NCBI GenBank assembly: GCA_944383895.1
Contig: CALWRH010000002.1
Span: 1-64,000, forward strand
DNA: 64,000 nt
Source of the DNA: an uncultured Christensenellaceae bacterium
Lineage (GTDB): Bacteria > Bacillota > Clostridia > Christensenellales > UBA3700
Direction: 5' to 3'
Shown: positions 866 to 6,562 of the stretch, piece by piece
Layout: every line of letters starts with the position of its first letter
Position numbering within the stretch: the stretch's first letter is position 1
The notes under the pieces: model-generated
The model's input: the letters and a program-made list of their open reading frames with translations, nothing else
Told to the model about the DNA's origin: nothing
Databases searched by the model: none
Position numbers and translations under genes: made by a program

Positions 866-1522
866 TCAATGCCTGAAAAGCCTGGGTTTAGAGGTCAGGA
901 TCCTCGGTCTTCTCGTTTCGACGTCGTCGCAGAGAAGGCGGAAGTTTCCTTGCGCGCTTTCTCTTATCGCGCCGTCGGGAGTAAAAGCTGCGGATACGTC
1001 GTAAAAATTGGCAAAAACCGTCATGCCCGTACATACCGAAAAAGAGGAGAGCAGTTTTTCGTCAACGGGAGAGAGCTTGCGCTCGTCAAAAACGATACAG
1101 CGTCTGCAGTCAGATGAAATCAAGGGTTGCCACAGCTGAGGGTATTCGAAATCGCGTCCGATGAGAACTCCCGTTCTTCCGCAAGGAGAATCGTAACATC
1201 TCAGGTTGTTGCCCTCGCAAAAACCTGCCCGCGGAGATATGCGGTCGCTTATGCCGAGCAGTTTGCCGTTTTCAAACACTATCACGCTGTCGTAGCGGTC
1301 GTCGTCGATAACTGCGCGCACGGCGCAGAATACCGCCGAGCGGGTAATGGCAGACAGCCGCATAAGGGAGAGGACGGTTTTTTGTTCGCCGTCAAGTTCT
1401 TTTTTCATGTCAAGCCGTCCGATAACGGAGCGGTGCAGACATATCACGTCGCCGCGTTTTGCCCGAGCGAACGCCAGCCCGAGTGCGTCTTCGGGCGGCA
1501 GGCAGGAAATACATATAAGCAT
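866..1522 (-). CDS. Degenerate nitrilase-superfamily-like protein
   Basis: The protein is about 218 residues. It begins MLICISCLPPEDALGLAFARAKRGDVICL, which fits the first strand-helix-strand of the carbon-nitrogen hydrolase fold. The middle (CGRTGVLIGRDFEYPQLW) matches the nitrilase 'GRxGVxICxDxxFPE' region, but Gly stands where the catalytic Cys should be. The positions for the catalytic Glu and Lys also look replaced (LHRS; SDRI), so it is probably not a hydrolase. The frame is open up to an ATG at 1687, but that ATG lies inside a -10 box and a terminator hairpin lies between. I therefore chose ATG 1522, which has TATAAT 6 nt upstream and no ribosome site (likely leaderless). Function unknown. 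Confidence 0.55.
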   Translation of the reverse strand: MLICISCLPPEDALGLAFARAKRGDVICLHRSVIGRLDMKKELDGEQKTVLSLMRLSAITRSAVFCAVRAVIDDDRYDSVIVFENGKLLGISDRISPRAGFCEGNNLRCYDSPCGRTGVLIGRDFEYPQLWQPLISSDCRRCIVFDERKLSPVDEKLLSSFSVCTGMTVFANFYDVSAAFTPDGAIRESAQGNFRLLCDDVETRRPRILTSKPRLFRH

Positions 1523-1528
1523 GTTTTC

Positions 1529-1534
1529 ATTATA
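1529..1534 (-). promoter_or_regulatory. -10 box of the nitrilase-like gene (leaderless type)
   Basis: TATAAT on the minus strand ends 6 nt before ATG 1522, so transcription would start at or next to the start codon. No clear -35 is visible: the terminator stem of the upstream small RNA occupies that position. Confidence 0.4.
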
Positions 1535-1539
1535 TGCGG

Positions 1540-1572
1540 AAAAAACAAGTTCCGCCCCTTTCGGAGCGGAAC
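1540..1572 (-). terminator. Intrinsic terminator of small RNA 1
   Basis: On the minus strand a GTTCCGC-type stem with a GAAA tetraloop (stem-loop 1549-1572) is followed by TTGTTTTTT. It lies upstream of the nitrilase-like ATG, so it ends a separate short transcript. Confidence 0.75.
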
Positions 1573-1679
1573 GGTTTATTTTACGGAGTCCCGGAGGAGA
1601 GTTTATGATTTCAAACAAAGAAGAAGTGTGTTTTGCGTGAGAGAGAGACTCCGATGTGTGATATATGCTTTGTTTTTGT
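1540..1679 (-). ncRNA. Putative csRNA-like small RNA 1
   Basis: This is an inferred RNA of about 140 nt. It starts about 7 nt after the TATAAT at 1691-1686 and ends at the 1540-1572 terminator. Its 5' part contains CGGAGTC (minus strand, 1653-1647), which pairs perfectly with GACTCCG (1590-1584). The enclosed loop ends in TCTCCTCC (1600-1593), the complement of a GGAGGAGA Shine-Dalgarno sequence. This is the same plan as small RNA 2. Streptococcal csRNAs made under CiaR control likewise expose CUCC-type motifs and end in a terminator. Nothing shows expression; promoter, stem and terminator are read from sequence. Confidence 0.6.
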
Positions 1680-1685
1680 AAGTTC

Positions 1686-1718
1686 ATTATATAGGCGACT
1701 TATTAAAGGAACGTGAAA
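1686..1718 (-). promoter_or_regulatory. CiaR-like box and -10 for small RNA 1
   Basis: On the minus strand TTTCAC-N5-TTTAAT (1718-1702) is followed, after exactly 10 bp, by TATAAT (1691-1686). The first half-site is weaker than in the other two copies. The direct-repeat hexamer spacing fits an OmpR/PhoB-type dimer bound at the -35 position. Confidence 0.6.
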
Positions 1719-1762
1719 GAATTTGAAAAAAATCAGCGTCCTGAGTAATGTTTGTGTAAAGA

Positions 1763-1793
1763 ATAAAAAAGCCGCCCCTTTTACGGGACGGCT
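1763..1793 (-). terminator. Terminator after the acidic membrane protein gene
   Basis: On the minus strand AGCCGTCCC / GGGGCGGCT form a stem (1770-1793) followed by a T-rich tail, 18 bp after the stop codon at 1811. Confidence 0.8.
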
Positions 1794-1810
1794 GACTGAC
1801 ATATTGTTTC

Positions 1811-2968
1811 TCAATATATTCTGACTGTCACTTTGCCTGAATCGCTTATGAAGCTGCAGGTGATTTTTATATAATATGTAGTGCCGTAATCGTAATATGT
1901 CGAAGGCAACGAGATTGCAGCAGAGGAAGAACCGCTCGTATAATTGCTGTAAGAGCTGCTGTTTTCTTCGTACAGATAAAGTCTGATGGTGTTGGTGTTT
2001 TCGCTGTATACGTTTACGCTTGCACTCTCGTAAGAGTTTACGTACACCCTTATCCAAATAGAATCTCCGTCTCTGACGAGGAAGGTATCTCTGTCTGAAG
2101 GACTCATGGACTGAGCGTCGCTTCTCGACGTGTTAGAGGCATAGTCATCATAGTTAGAATAATCATACGAAGAGCCCGATCCTACCGCAGAAACGATAAT
2201 GCCTGTCATATAGCCGACAAGTATGACTATCGCGCATACGAGAGCGACGATATTTTCAGCCATGGTGTAAGGGGTTTTCTTGAATCCTTTATGCTGAGAA
2301 GGGGTGTCGTACAGGAACGCGTGGAAGTGAATACCGCCGAGGCTGTATACATATCCGAAACAGTTGATAAGGAAATTGATAAAGAAAAATCCTATGCCTA
2401 TCAACGCGCCCGCTATTCTGAAAAAAAGAACGACGGGATAACCCATAAGATAAATGATGAGCTGTACCCATATGCTGTCGTGATCGCTCTTCATCGAAGT
2501 TATCATATAATCTGCAGGCGCGATCAGCATTTTGTACGCAAAGAGCAGTACATAGAAAGACGCGGCAAGCATTATGAAAGATATAAGGAACGGGGACAGA
2601 GCTATTCCGAGCAGTATCGCGGGGGCAAGCTTAAGTCTTTTGTAGTGGTGGAAACTGAGCACGTCGGAAATGGTTTCCGCTGTCGTTTCGTAAAACGGGG
2701 TATTGCCGAAAGTCGTGGCAAAAACCGATTTTTTAGCTTTTTTGTCCTCTTTGGACGATTGTTCGTCGCCCGTCTGACTTTCTTCGGGCTGTTCTTCTTC
2801 GTATTCGTAATAAGTATCGTCCGGTTGTCCTTCGTAGAACTCTTCGGGCTGATCGGGATCCGCGGTTTCTTCGTACTCGACGTATTCTTCGTCTGCGTCC
2901 GGAGTAGTTTCGGGATCGGTTTCGTAGACATATTCTTCGTCTACGGTTTCGTCGTGCTTCTTCTTCAT
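1811..2968 (-). CDS. Acidic, multi-pass membrane protein with extracytoplasmic beta-rich tail
   Basis: The protein is 385 residues and I do not recognise a family. Residues 1-75 are extremely Glu/Asp/Tyr-rich (repeats such as EEYVEYEE, YYEYEEEQPEE) and end in a basic patch. Several hydrophobic segments follow between about 115 and 275 (PAILLGIALSPFLISFIML, LIIYLMGYPVVLFFRIAGAL, NIVALVCAIVILVGYMTGIIV). The last 110 residues are Ser/Tyr-rich and alternate polar and beta-branched residues, like a small beta-sandwich (DSIWIRVYVNS; TIRLYLYEE). ATG 2968 has AAGGAG 9 nt upstream; the ATG at 2974 would sit only 3 nt from it. It has its own sigma-A promoter and lies beside the two-component locus. Confidence 0.8.
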   Translation of the reverse strand: MKKKHDETVDEEYVYETDPETTPDADEEYVEYEETADPDQPEEFYEGQPDDTYYEYEEEQPEESQTGDEQSSKEDKKAKKSVFATTFGNTPFYETTAETISDVLSFHHYKRLKLAPAILLGIALSPFLISFIMLAASFYVLLFAYKMLIAPADYMITSMKSDHDSIWVQLIIYLMGYPVVLFFRIAGALIGIGFFFINFLINCFGYVYSLGGIHFHAFLYDTPSQHKGFKKTPYTMAENIVALVCAIVILVGYMTGIIVSAVGSGSSYDYSNYDDYASNTSRSDAQSMSPSDRDTFLVRDGDSIWIRVYVNSYESASVNVYSENTNTIRLYLYEENSSSYSNYTSGSSSAAISLPSTYYDYGTTYYIKITCSFISDSGKVTVRIY

Positions 2969-2997
2969 AAACATCCTCTCCTTGATTTGTTAAGGAA

Positions 2998-3026
2998 ATT
3001 ATAAGCTTTTGCTGTAAAATTGTCAA
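2998..3026 (-). promoter_or_regulatory. Sigma-A promoter of the acidic membrane protein gene
   Basis: On the minus strand TTGACA (3026-3021), a 17-bp spacer and TATAAT (3003-2998). It lies downstream of the small RNA 2 terminator, so the two transcripts are separate. Confidence 0.85.
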
Positions 3027-3035
3027 TTATTAAAA

Positions 3036-3065
3036 TATAAAAAACCCGCCGTTTTCACGGCGGGT
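3036..3065 (-). terminator. Intrinsic terminator of small RNA 2
   Basis: On the minus strand ACCCGCCG-TGAAAA-CGGCGGGT is followed by TTTTTTATATTTT. The strong stem and T-tail face only the minus strand. Confidence 0.85.
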
Positions 3066-3173
3066 GGTAAGTTTACTAGAGGGAGATAAGAGGAGTGTTT
3101 TTTAATAGGTGTTTGGAAGAAGTCTTTTATGTTTTGTGCTCCGGCTCTAGTATGGGGGGGTTAGCTCTTTTGT
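3036..3173 (-). ncRNA. Putative csRNA-like small RNA 2
   Basis: This is an inferred RNA of about 138 nt between a -10 box (3185-3180) and the terminator at 3036-3065. ACTAGAG (3151-3145) pairs perfectly with CTCTAGT (3081-3075). The loop ends in the CU-rich stretch CTCCTCTTATCTCCCTC, which could pair with ribosome-binding sites. A run of seven C's lies near the 5' end. No credible reading frame with a ribosome site occupies the stretch, and the neighbouring membrane-protein gene has its own promoter downstream. The layout matches small RNA 1 and resembles CiaR-dependent csRNAs. Confidence 0.65.
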
Positions 3174-3179
3174 GACTTC

Positions 3180-3212
3180 ATTATATGGCTGCTTGATTAA
3201 AGGAGCATTAAA
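3180..3212 (-). promoter_or_regulatory. CiaR-like box and -10 for small RNA 2
   Basis: On the minus strand TTTAAT-N5-TTTAAT (3212-3196), then exactly 10 bp, then TATAAT (3185-3180). It differs from the box upstream of the regulator gene mainly in the 5-bp spacer. Confidence 0.7.
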
Positions 3213-3311
3213 AACAAAAAAAATTCAGATATTTCTCAAAAATATCGAAAATGAGTATTTGGAAAAGGTAAAATTCAAAAATAAACAAGCATAAGCATCA
3301 AAAAAATATGT

Positions 3312-3344
3312 TTTAATCGTCCTTTAATATAAAAGAAATATATT
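3312..3344 (+). promoter_or_regulatory. CiaR-like box and -10 for the two-component operon
   Basis: TTTAAT-N5-TTTAAT (3312-3328), 10 bp, then TATATT (3339-3344). It lies about 80 bp before the response-regulator gene, suggesting autoregulation. Confidence 0.7.
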
Positions 3345-3423: not shown

Positions 3424-4110
3424 ATGAAAATATTGCTCGTAGAAGACGAAGTTCAGATGTCCGAGGCAATAGCCGGACTTTTGCGAAAAAACAAATATCT
3501 CGTCGAGTGCGCTTTTGACGGAGAAGAAGGCTTGCAGATGGGTATGGTAGGCGACTATGACGTAATAATCATGGATATCATGATGCCCGTTATAGACGGA
3601 TATGAGGTCGTCCGCCTGCTGCGCAAGAGAGGTATCACGACTCCTATCATAATGCTGACGGCATTGTCTTCTGTCGAAGACAAAGTAAAAGGTCTTGACA
3701 TAGGAGCAGACGATTATATGACCAAACCTTTTTCCGTCGACGAGCTGGAGGCACGTCTGCGCGCGATATCGAGAAGAAGAGGACAGGCGGTCGCCGACAA
3801 TAATATAAAGGTTGGCAACGTTACGCTCAATATAAAAGAATTCACGCTTTCCGCAGGCGGAAGGAGCATAGCTCTTTCAGGCAAGGAATACGAGCTTGCT
3901 TTCTGCTTTTTCTCCAATCCGAGCGCGGTCTTCACAAAAGACGAACTTATAAATAAGGTATGGGGTTTCGATTGCGATTTCGAGTCCAACAACCTTGAAG
4001 TCTACATTTCGTTTCTGCGCAAGAAACTCAATTATCTCGATCCCGAAGTCACAATATCGTCTGTCAGAGGCGTAGGATACAAACTCGTTACAAAGGGCAT
4101 CAATGGATAA
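3424..4110 (+). CDS. OmpR/PhoB-family response regulator
   Basis: The protein has 228 residues. Residues 1-115 are a receiver domain: acidic pocket in LLVEDE, phospho-acceptor Asp51 in VIIMDIMMP, and the conserved Lys in MTKPF. Residues 130-225 are a winged-helix DNA-binding domain (SGKEYELAFCFFSNP, LINKVWG, SFLRKKL, SVRGVGYKL). I chose ATG 3424 because the receiver domain begins there and GAGGTG precedes it; an upstream in-frame extension carries no conserved sequence. The kinase gene overlaps the 3' end by 8 bp. The box at 3312 and the two boxes before small RNAs suggest this protein controls itself and both RNAs, as CiaR does; that link is inference. Confidence 0.95.
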   Translation: MKILLVEDEVQMSEAIAGLLRKNKYLVECAFDGEEGLQMGMVGDYDVIIMDIMMPVIDGYEVVRLLRKRGITTPIIMLTALSSVEDKVKGLDIGADDYMTKPFSVDELEARLRAISRRRGQAVADNNIKVGNVTLNIKEFTLSAGGRSIALSGKEYELAFCFFSNPSAVFTKDELINKVWGFDCDFESNNLEVYISFLRKKLNYLDPEVTISSVRGVGYKLVTKGING

Positions 4111-5362
4111 GGTTCTAAATCAGTTAAGACGCAGGTTTATAATAGTCTTCATGATCGTAGGCGGGGCGTTTCTTCTCCTCGCGTACGGCTCCATTTTCGT
4201 GGTCAACGTCACGCAGACGATAGGAGCTATAGACAAGGATCTCAACGACGTGCTGGACAAGACGCCGTCGCCGGTTTTCGACGATAAAGAAGAGTGGCTG
4301 CAGCGATCGAATTGCATTATAATCGTGCGCCAGGGCACAGACGTTTCCGTTTACAATTCGGACAGCGTAGAAAATGACGATATCCCGGGCATAGTAGATA
4401 TGGCCGTTGTGAACGGCGAGGACAATTTTGCGATCCAGGGCAAATATTACAAAGCCACTCAACGCAATATCATAGGCAACGATGTATCCGTTTACGCCGT
4501 ATACGACTGGACGAGCGACAGGGCGGATCTCGTTGAGGCAGGTGTGGTCACGGGGCTTGTCTATTTCTTCTGTCTCGTACTTCTTTTCATTTTCGGCAAT
4601 ATGGTCGCAAAACAGGTAGTCGAACCTGTCAAACGTTCTTACGAACAGCAGAAAAAGCTGGTCGCAGACGCGTCGCACGAACTCAAGACTCCTATAGCGA
4701 TAGTCGGGGCAAATCTTTCGCTTATAGCGAGCGATCCCGATTCTACCGTAGCTCAGAACGAGCATTGGTTCAAAAACATTGAGTCGCAGCTGGGCAGGAT
4801 GAGCGCACTCATTACTGATATGCTCGAGCTGCACCGTGCCGACGACGCGAAAAACAAGCCCGAAACTTATGAAGACATATCCGCTCTTCTTGACGGAGTA
4901 CTGCTGTCTTTCGAGGCGCGTTGTTTCGAAAAGAACGTAAAACTGACAGAAACTCTGCAATCCGACGTTAAAACGCTCTGCATAAAGCAGAACATAGAAA
5001 GACTTTATGCGATAATGATGGACAATGCGTTGAAATACACTCCTCAGGGAGGAAGTATAGACGTCACTCTGAAATGCGATAAAAAGAACGCGGTCATTGA
5101 CTTTACCAATTACGGCGTAGGCATAGCAAAAGAGCATTTGCCTAAATTGTTCGACCGTTTTTACCGCGTTGACAACGCTCGCACGCAGAACAATCAGCAG
5201 GGTAACAGTTTCGGACTCGGACTCAGTCTTGCAAAATCCATAGTGCTCGATCACGACGGTACGATAACGTGCGACAGCGACGGTTCGACTTACGTCGATT
5301 TCAGAATAGAGCTGCCGCTCAAACAGGAAAGAAGAAAACGCACTGAAAAGGCGAAGATTTGA
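4103..5362 (+). CDS. Membrane sensor histidine kinase
   Basis: The protein has 419 residues. A first membrane segment lies near residues 13-38 (IVFMIVGGAFLLLAYGSIFVV) and a second near 150-172 (VVTGLVYFFCLVLLFIFGNMV). They enclose an extracytoplasmic sensor region of about 110 residues with no recognised fold. His192 in DASHELKTPIA is the phosphorylation site. The ATPase domain follows, with N box NALKYTP, G1 box GVGIAKEHLPKLFDRFYR and G2 box FGLGLSLA. It is translationally coupled to the response regulator by an 8-bp overlap. The architecture is like CiaH/PhoR-type kinases. The signal sensed is unknown. Confidence 0.95.
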   Translation: MDKVLNQLRRRFIIVFMIVGGAFLLLAYGSIFVVNVTQTIGAIDKDLNDVLDKTPSPVFDDKEEWLQRSNCIIIVRQGTDVSVYNSDSVENDDIPGIVDMAVVNGEDNFAIQGKYYKATQRNIIGNDVSVYAVYDWTSDRADLVEAGVVTGLVYFFCLVLLFIFGNMVAKQVVEPVKRSYEQQKKLVADASHELKTPIAIVGANLSLIASDPDSTVAQNEHWFKNIESQLGRMSALITDMLELHRADDAKNKPETYEDISALLDGVLLSFEARCFEKNVKLTETLQSDVKTLCIKQNIERLYAIMMDNALKYTPQGGSIDVTLKCDKKNAVIDFTNYGVGIAKEHLPKLFDRFYRVDNARTQNNQQGNSFGLGLSLAKSIVLDHDGTITCDSDGSTYVDFRIELPLKQERRKRTEKAKI

Positions 5363-5392
5363 GAATTTTCAAAGCGTAAAATGGAGGAGAAT

Positions 5393-6562
5393 ATGTTCAA
5401 TTTCAAAATGCCTACGAGATTGATCTTCGGTGCGGGTACGCTCGGAGAACTCAATAAGTGGGTAAACTCAGGCAAAAAAGCTTTGGTCGTAGTAAGCAAC
5501 GGCAAGTCTACAAAAGTAAACGGATATCTCGACAGAACTACCGCTCAGCTTGAAAAAGCAGGCGCGGAGTGGGTGCTTTTTGACGAAATAGAGCCCAATC
5601 CGCTCAAAGCTACCGTAGAGCGCGGCGCGGCTTGCGCGAGAAAGAACGGTTGCGATTTTATCGTAGCTCTCGGCGGTGGCAGCGTTATGGATGCAAGCAA
5701 GGCGATAGCGTCCATGGCAACCAACGACGGAGATCTGTGGGATTACGTCTGCGGAGGAACGGGCAAGGGTAAACCGCTTGCGAAAGCTCCGCTCCCGATA
5801 ATAGCCATAACGACTACCGCGGGCACGGGCTCCGAAGTGGACGAATACGGAGTAATCACCAATCCCGAAACGCACGAGAAGATAGGTTTTGGCGGCGATG
5901 TCAGACTTTTCCCCGTCGTGGCGATCGTCGATCCCGAGCTTATGACGAGCGTACCGCCGAAATATACGGCATATCAGGGATTCGATGCGCTCTTCCACAG
6001 TACGGAAACGTACATCAACAAGATTGCCAACGAGATGAGCGACATGGTGTCTTCTACCGCGATAAAGAACATCGGCACGTATCTCGCGAAGGCGGTGGAA
6101 AACGGCAAAGACATCGAGGCGCGCACCGCTGTCGCGTGGGCAAACACGATGAGCGGTTACGCAATGGTGATAGGCGGCTGCACGAGCGAACACTCTCTCG
6201 AACATGCAATGAGCGCATATCATCAGCAGCTTCCGCACGGCGCTGGTCTTATCATGATAAGCCTTGCGTATTACAAGCACTTTATCGACGCACACGTCTG
6301 CGACGAGCGTTTTGTGGATATGGCTAAATGGCTGGGCAAAGCCGATGCGGAAAAACCCGAGGACTTCCTCACAGCGCTTGCTGACCTGCAAAAGGCGTGC
6401 GGAGTGTACGGACTCAAGATGTCGGATTACGGCGTGACCCCCGACGAATTCCCCGTATGGGCAGACAACGCGCGCTCTGCGATGGGAGGCTTGTTCACGC
6501 GCGACAGAGTGGATCTCAGCAAGGAAGACTGCATAAGGATATACGAAAGGTCTTTTGCCTGA
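5393..6562 (+). CDS. Iron-containing alcohol dehydrogenase (butanol dehydrogenase-like)
   Basis: The protein has 389 residues, normal for group III Fe-ADHs, which reduce aldehydes with NAD(P)H in the cytoplasm. The nucleotide-binding motif is IVALGGGSVMDASKA. Metal ligands are visible in GFDALFHSTE (Asp, His) and in EHAMSAYHQQLPHGAG (two His). ATG 5393 was chosen because GGAGGAG lies 3-9 nt before it; the ATG at 5381 overlaps that ribosome site. It begins 30 bp after the kinase gene with no terminator between, so it may be cotranscribed with the two-component genes. The substrate cannot be told from sequence. Confidence 0.92.
   Translation: MFNFKMPTRLIFGAGTLGELNKWVNSGKKALVVVSNGKSTKVNGYLDRTTAQLEKAGAEWVLFDEIEPNPLKATVERGAACARKNGCDFIVALGGGSVMDASKAIASMATNDGDLWDYVCGGTGKGKPLAKAPLPIIAITTTAGTGSEVDEYGVITNPETHEKIGFGGDVRLFPVVAIVDPELMTSVPPKYTAYQGFDALFHSTETYINKIANEMSDMVSSTAIKNIGTYLAKAVENGKDIEARTAVAWANTMSGYAMVIGGCTSEHSLEHAMSAYHQQLPHGAGLIMISLAYYKHFIDAHVCDERFVDMAKWLGKADAEKPEDFLTALADLQKACGVYGLKMSDYGVTPDEFPVWADNARSAMGGLFTRDRVDLSKEDCIRIYERSFA

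Follow-up and report, generated by a model that had tools for sequence, protein, structure and literature searches.

Probable self-control of a two-component system and two related small RNAs through CiaR-type promoters in an uncultured Christensenellaceae bacterium

Introduction

Could one response regulator control both its own gene and a pair of neighboring small RNAs in a Clostridia-type genome, in the manner of streptococcal CiaRH? The question is raised by the first kilobases of the window analyzed here, a 64,000-nucleotide stretch of contig CALWRH010000002.1 (positions 1 to 64,000, forward strand; GenBank assembly GCA_944383895.1) from an uncultured Christensenellaceae bacterium. A sequence-only reading had proposed that three identically built TTTAAT-N5-TTTAAT promoters surround a two-component system and that its regulator controls itself and two RNAs, forming a CiaRH-like circuit. 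CiaR sites have the form NTTAAG-N5-TTTAAG, and the -10 box lies 10 nt away; in streptococci, the final G of each hexamer does not vary and is essential, being described as "extremely important" (PMC3091779). The csRNAs carry anti-Shine-Dalgarno (anti-SD) and anti-AUG sequences in unpaired regions, which in Streptococcus pneumoniae lie between two stem-loops (PMC3091779). Here, we ask how far the locus shares this architecture and what its parts may do.

Results

Features of the locus (positions of the window; RNA ends are predicted from -10 box and terminator)
Feature	Position	Strand	Description
Site A	1702..1718	-	TTTCAC-N5-TTTAAT; predicted operator of RNA A
-10 box of RNA A	1686..1691	-	TATAAT, 10 bp from site A
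RNA A	1540..1679	-	~140 nt
RNA A core	1584..1653	-	helix CGGAGUC..GACUCCG, closes 52-nt CU-rich loop
RNA A loop segment	1593..1607	-	CAUAAACUCUCCUCC; complement is GGAGGAGAGUUUAUG (SD, spacer, AUG)
RNA A Rho-independent terminator	1549..1572	-	10 pairs, 7 G-C, T-run
Site B	3196..3212	-	exact TTTAAT-N5-TTTAAT; predicted operator of RNA B
-10 box of RNA B	3180..3185	-	TATAAT, 10 bp from site B
RNA B	3035..3173	-	~140 nt
RNA B core	3074..3152	-	helix 3152-3139 with 3085-3074, closes 53-nt CU-rich loop
RNA B loop segment	3115..3131	-	CAUAAAAGACUUCUUCC; complement is a purine-rich SD-like stretch plus start codon
RNA B Rho-independent terminator	3044..3065	-	9 pairs, 7 G-C, T-run
Site C	3312..3328	+	exact TTTAAT-N5-TTTAAT; predicted operator of regulator gene
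-10 box of regulator promoter	3339..3344	+	TATATT, 10 bp after site C
OmpR/PhoB-family response regulator	3424..4110	+	Pfam Response_reg 1.4e-28, Trans_reg_C 3.2e-19
Regulator recognition helix			SNNLEVYISFLRKKL; preserved in orthologs
Membrane sensor histidine kinase	4103..5362	+	Pfam HisKA, HATPase_c; start overlaps regulator stop

Read directly, the B promoter (3212-3180, minus strand) is an exact TTTAAT-gctcc-TTTAAT-N10-TATAAT, and the C promoter (3312-3344, plus strand), TTTAAT-cgtcc-TTTAAT-N10-TATATT, has a single mismatch, in the -10 box. The A promoter (1718-1686, minus strand) reads TTTCAC-gttcc-TTTAAT-N10-TATAAT, and because of its first hexamer the three promoters are not strictly identically built, as the sequence-only reading had it; the exact repeat belongs to B and C. 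That reading was right that exactly 10 bp separate repeat from TATAAT or TATATT at all three sites, and that one site (C) precedes the response-regulator gene and two (A and B) precede short terminated transcripts. Allowing up to three mismatches to the full pattern, the 1.85-Mb genome holds 19 matches, of which B, C, and A rank at the top with 0, 1, and 2 mismatches, all inside 1.7 kb; four more matches, scattered elsewhere, also have 2 mismatches. Since the reversed-pattern control gave a similar total (21), the weaker matches are background. A 40-nt profile of 35 sites returned E values of 5.5e-8 (B), 1.3e-7 (A), and 2.5e-5 (C), with nothing else below E = 0.4 in this genome, where no site beyond these three stands out. 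The profile uses sequence only, was trained on these very sites, and scored 150 first-look candidates per genome, so conservation is the stronger, independent argument.

Conservation was assessed in the regions around kinase orthologs, which are present in each of the 13 genus genomes; nine kinases, including that of the window's genome, are close (77-100% identity) and four are divergent (56-57%). Sites B and C are each present in 13/13 genomes and site A in nine, namely, those with close kinases. The resulting 35 sites align without gaps; neither the N5 spacer of the hexamers nor the N10 distance to the -10 box varies. The first hexamer of site A is TTTCAC in all nine genomes that carry it, that of site B is TTTAAT or TTTAAC across the genus, and that of site C has decayed to ATTCAT in G008 and ATTAAT in G004. 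The second hexamer is TTTAAT except in site B of the four divergent species, where it is TTTAAG or TTTAAC; a final G occurs only there, in G008 and G004, and elsewhere the final base is T or C. In G004, the two-component locus and RNA B are present twice in apparently identical form (L139 on C11, L140 on C18); either the assembly duplicated the region, or a true duplication took place recently.

Additional, weaker sites with identical spacing occur in some genus members: before trpS in G004, G006, and G008 (weaker still in G010), before an ABC exporter in G001 and G004, and before a PDZ-domain S41 protease in G007. At trpS in G006, G008, and G004 (L173, L175, and L176, respectively), the sequence is TTTAAC-N5-TTTAA(C/G)-N10-TATAAT, with a second -10-like box nearer the gene.

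Both RNAs are predicted to fold as one long helix with a 52- to 53-nt open loop, followed by the terminator; in the minimum-energy fold of RNA A, a small weak hairpin sits inside the loop. Fold energies lie well below those of shuffled sequence (z = -6.0 for RNA A, -4.8 for RNA B). Over 12 sequences that include divergent species, mean column identity in the RNA B core is 93%, and the core is near-invariant in species whose kinases are merely 56-82% identical to that of the window, the range found in the 12 other genomes of the genus; RNA A has 85% column identity. Within the RNA B helix, 98.6% of cells are paired, compared to 43-64% when the helix is slid, and there is one compensatory C-G/G-C change, a single event. 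A model of the RNA B core finds 13/13 genus genomes at E <= 2e-18. Under stricter filters, it found nothing convincing in 33 further members of the family or, genus members aside, in a 297-genome sample of the order; matches in G021 and G188 were chance-like on reading, and none occurred in viral contigs. RNA A is strong in 9/13 genus genomes, and a further match in G034 is mainly terminator similarity. Neither RNA had an Rfam match at gathering score, and at E <= 1 only unrelated weak matches appeared. RNA B was ruled out as a coding gene: its core contains no start codon, and in some copies the only one lies near the terminator.

Judged by their sequences, the two RNAs are related to each other: in several genomes, the RNA A covariance model also recognizes RNA B, with E values of 1.4e-8 to 3.8e-4. 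The same model found, by RNA sequence, a third copy in G003 (E = 9.4e-10), which also lies 3' of a TTTCAT-N5-TTTAAC-N10-GATAAT promoter.

The loops of RNAs A and B expose unpaired anti-SD and anti-start stretches, according to sequence and predicted fold. RNA A carries CAU-(2-4 nt)-CUCUCCUCC in 9/9 species, and RNA B has CAU or CAC shortly 5' of ACUUCUUCC in 13/13 genomes, so that the anti-start triplet is preserved in every copy of either RNA. In RNA A, the spacer between CAU and anti-SD varies in length while CAU stays, and this constancy points to pairing with regions where translation starts. When the genome was searched with the complements of A and B, no targets were identified. The RNA A complement occurred about threefold more often than the reversed control, an excess that any SD-like pattern would give; the RNA B anti-start complement showed no excess over its control. 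Lipoprotein-like and membrane-protein genes recur among RNA A matches with one or two mismatches and are a lead only.

The RNA A transcript would end inside a mechanically called open reading frame (866-1687, minus strand). A start for this frame within the -10 box of site A was rejected, as RNA A indels between species are not divisible by three; together with a conserved start after the terminator, this indicates that the gene probably begins at ATG 1522. A TATAAT box just 6 nt ahead of that start codon is conserved in most relatives, and the mRNA of 866-1522 is likely leaderless; its product has no Pfam match. The DNA following RNA B varies between genomes while RNA B stays constant. In the window, this DNA holds a perfect TTGACA-N17-TATAAT promoter (2998-3026, minus strand) before the gene of a 387-amino-acid membrane protein (1811-2974), which has an acidic N terminus and no Pfam match.

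The regulator comprises a receiver and a winged-helix output domain (Pfam), the domain pair that defines the OmpR/PhoB family. No NCBIfam equivalog (RppA, PhoB, and others) scored above its cutoff, the best reaching 193.5 bits against a cutoff of 250. Its recognition helix, SNNLEVY(I/M)SFLRKKL, varies within the genus at the I/M position alone and is nearly invariant in family orthologs (SNSLEVFISFLRKKL and close variants). An iron-containing alcohol dehydrogenase gene (5381-6562, plus strand) starts 19 nt after the kinase stop and is possibly part of the same operon.

Helices of the N(N/S)VE-x-(Y/H)-(I/V)-SF type are found in 14 more distantly related regulators (43-49% identity) from Clostridia and Coriobacteria. 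The 350 bp upstream of their genes, 4.9 kb in total, contain seven TTTAA-x repeats followed by N10 and a hexamer resembling a -10 box, compared to one in the remaining 132 kb of locus DNA, a local enrichment of ~190-fold. This concentration is the best evidence that regulators of this type read the motif and control their own genes. Four of the seven repeats face away from the regulator gene and precede protein genes. At L053, L058, L055, and L063, TTTAAG-type repeats are divergent to genes that we named by eye from sequence as VTC-like or lipoprotein-like, which suggests an uncharacterized Clostridia/Coriobacteria regulon.

In other genera, the site profile is weak, genus g3 being the exception; there, the divergent strand carries the repeats at positions -48/-51 relative to the regulator, with a terminator-like hairpin ~100 nt beyond them. 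In genus g5, 4/9 regions have a TTTAAC-N5-TTTAAT site ahead of a different conserved short RNA, 130 to 890 bp upstream of the regulator ortholog (L233, L229, L231, L232); the other five g5 regions and all three g6 regions examined showed no such site beside the regulator. The g5 RNA is unrelated to RNAs A and B, has no Rfam match, and carries CAUAAGCAUCUCCU, comprising an anti-AUG CAU and an anti-SD, followed by a strong terminator; it was also noted as carrying CAUAAGCAUCUCCUAAGG. In two predicted folds, the anti-SD is open, and CAU is partly paired in one of them.

Discussion

We consider it likely that the locus encodes a two-component system that regulates itself and drives a pair of repressor sRNAs, similar to CiaRH and the csRNAs. 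In this arrangement, the kinase would phosphorylate the regulator, which we infer to bind as a tandem dimer to TTTMAY-N5-TTTAAY repeats. These would replace the -35 element 10 bp upstream of the three -10 boxes, so that binding would activate the regulator's own operon from site C and the two related ~140-nt RNAs from sites B and A. Once made, each RNA would consist of a single helix, which presents a large unpaired CU-rich loop, and of the terminator that follows. The loops contain several anti-SD stretches, of which one in each RNA adjoins an anti-start-codon triplet. Through these, the RNAs could pair in trans with the ribosome-binding sites of mRNAs, perhaps from envelope or stress genes, and repress translation of these targets.

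The resemblance to CiaRH extends to an OmpR-type regulator, tandem hexamers with N5 and 10 nt to TATAAT, strong sRNA promoters, and short RNAs with unpaired anti-SD and anti-AUG sequences in several copies (PMC3091779, PMC8186281). All 35 sites show the direct repeat, its halves 5 bp apart and its end 10 nt from the -10 box; the anti-SD/anti-start stretches of the RNAs are unpaired and followed by a terminator, as judged by sequence and predicted fold. In contrast, the sixth base is T or C in nearly all present sites rather than the invariant G, and the recognition helix is NLEVYISFLRKKL here and VVEVYVSKVRKKL in CiaR (8/13 identical, with a central K changed to F), the CiaR protein being compared by its published helix alone, VVEVYVSK(V/I)RKKL. 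Where csRNAs have an unpaired region flanked by two stem-loops, the present RNAs have a ~52-nt loop on a single long helix; they are also linked to the regulator, and few sites per genome are recognizable, compared to 15 promoters for CiaRH. The proposal of a CiaRH-like circuit is thus borne out in the predicted self-regulation plus two RNAs, the CiaR promoter geometry (PMC3091779), the conserved RNAs with anti-initiation stretches, and the repeats at relatives' own genes, but not in identity with CiaR. As it departs from CiaRH in the final G, the recognition helix, and the RNA fold, we do not file the circuit as CiaRH; it would work like CiaRH/csRNA while apparently being built from different parts.

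The motif alone would not single out CiaR, since other OmpR-family regulators, e.g., PmrA, also read TTAA-type tandem repeats. We know of no sRNA pair controlled by PmrA, and the genes differ from those here. BasR structures are among the PDB matches of the regulator, though better ones exist (response regulator D, 1kgs). PmrA (BasR) of enterobacteria is an OmpR-family protein that recognizes tandem imperfect repeats (PMC3973317). In Listeria, the two-component system LisRK likewise controls related sRNAs, LhrC1-5, whose redundant CU-rich motifs block the SD; in contrast to the present RNAs, LhrC consists of two stem-loops with CUCCC plus a U-run, differing in both sequence and structure, and no LisR consensus was known (PMC4132741). 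RNAs A and B had no Rfam match that would place them in the LhrC family. The regulators at L050-L063 (Clostridia/Coriobacteria; NNVExYISFxRKKL helices; 43-49% identity), found beside VTC-like or lipoprotein-like genes, have repeats of the TTTAAG-N5-TTTAAG-N10 type at the regulator or a divergent gene; unlike here, their divergent sites precede protein genes, not sRNAs.

The repeats might instead be operators of another OmpR-type regulator, the adjoining two-component system being just one of its targets. Many OmpR-family members bind 11-bp tandem repeats, and G000 encodes five Trans_reg_C proteins. We regard this as improbable: all three strong sites of the genome fall within 1.7 kb around the regulator-kinase pair, two other regulators of the same genome have unrelated recognition helices, and wider relatives of the present regulator have TTTAAG-N5-TTTAAG at their own genes. 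That the repeats are ordinary AT-rich promoter sequence, regular by chance, is hardly credible and already contradicted by conservation, with invariant spacing in 35 sites from 13 genomes and the ~190-fold enrichment at relatives' regulator genes, even though TTTAAT is common in AT-rich intergenic DNA and the weaker genome matches equal the control.

Other explanations concern the RNAs. The loop is long and open, with redundant CU-rich stretches, and RNA B has no clear genomic partner; both features would also fit RNAs that mimic the 16S 3' end and so compete globally for SD sequences, or RNAs that titrate a protein, e.g., a GGA binder of the CsrA type or some other protein that binds C/U. This is unlikely in our view, as the GGA motifs are located in helices and anti-start triplets accompany the anti-SD in every copy despite spacer changes, as in csRNAs (PMC3091779). 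Alternatively, RNAs A and B could be leaders or attenuators of downstream genes rather than free trans-acting RNAs, given that each has a terminator and is followed by a gene in the same orientation. We find this quite improbable, because the DNA after RNA B changes between genomes and the RNA does not, the next gene has its own promoter after B and a conserved TATAAT-like box ~6 nt before its start codon after A, and the conserved part is a CU-rich loop, not a switch between alternative helices.

The preferred reading, a self-regulated two-component system with two repressor RNAs, makes sharp predictions: three promoters, one regulator, and two RNAs. It would give two strongly conserved sRNAs that lack an Rfam match a predicted regulator, promoter, and mode of action. 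More tentatively, and with somewhat more doubt than confidence, we propose that the CiaR-type operator code (TTTAA-x, N5, N10) is not confined to streptococci and belongs to a broad Clostridia/Coriobacteria clade of ISF-helix regulators. In one family, this clade may have at least twice placed unrelated anti-ribosome-binding-site RNAs beside itself, making the two-component system plus anti-initiation sRNAs a recurrent module. The present locus suggests that the logic of streptococcal CiaRH and its csRNAs is not a private invention.
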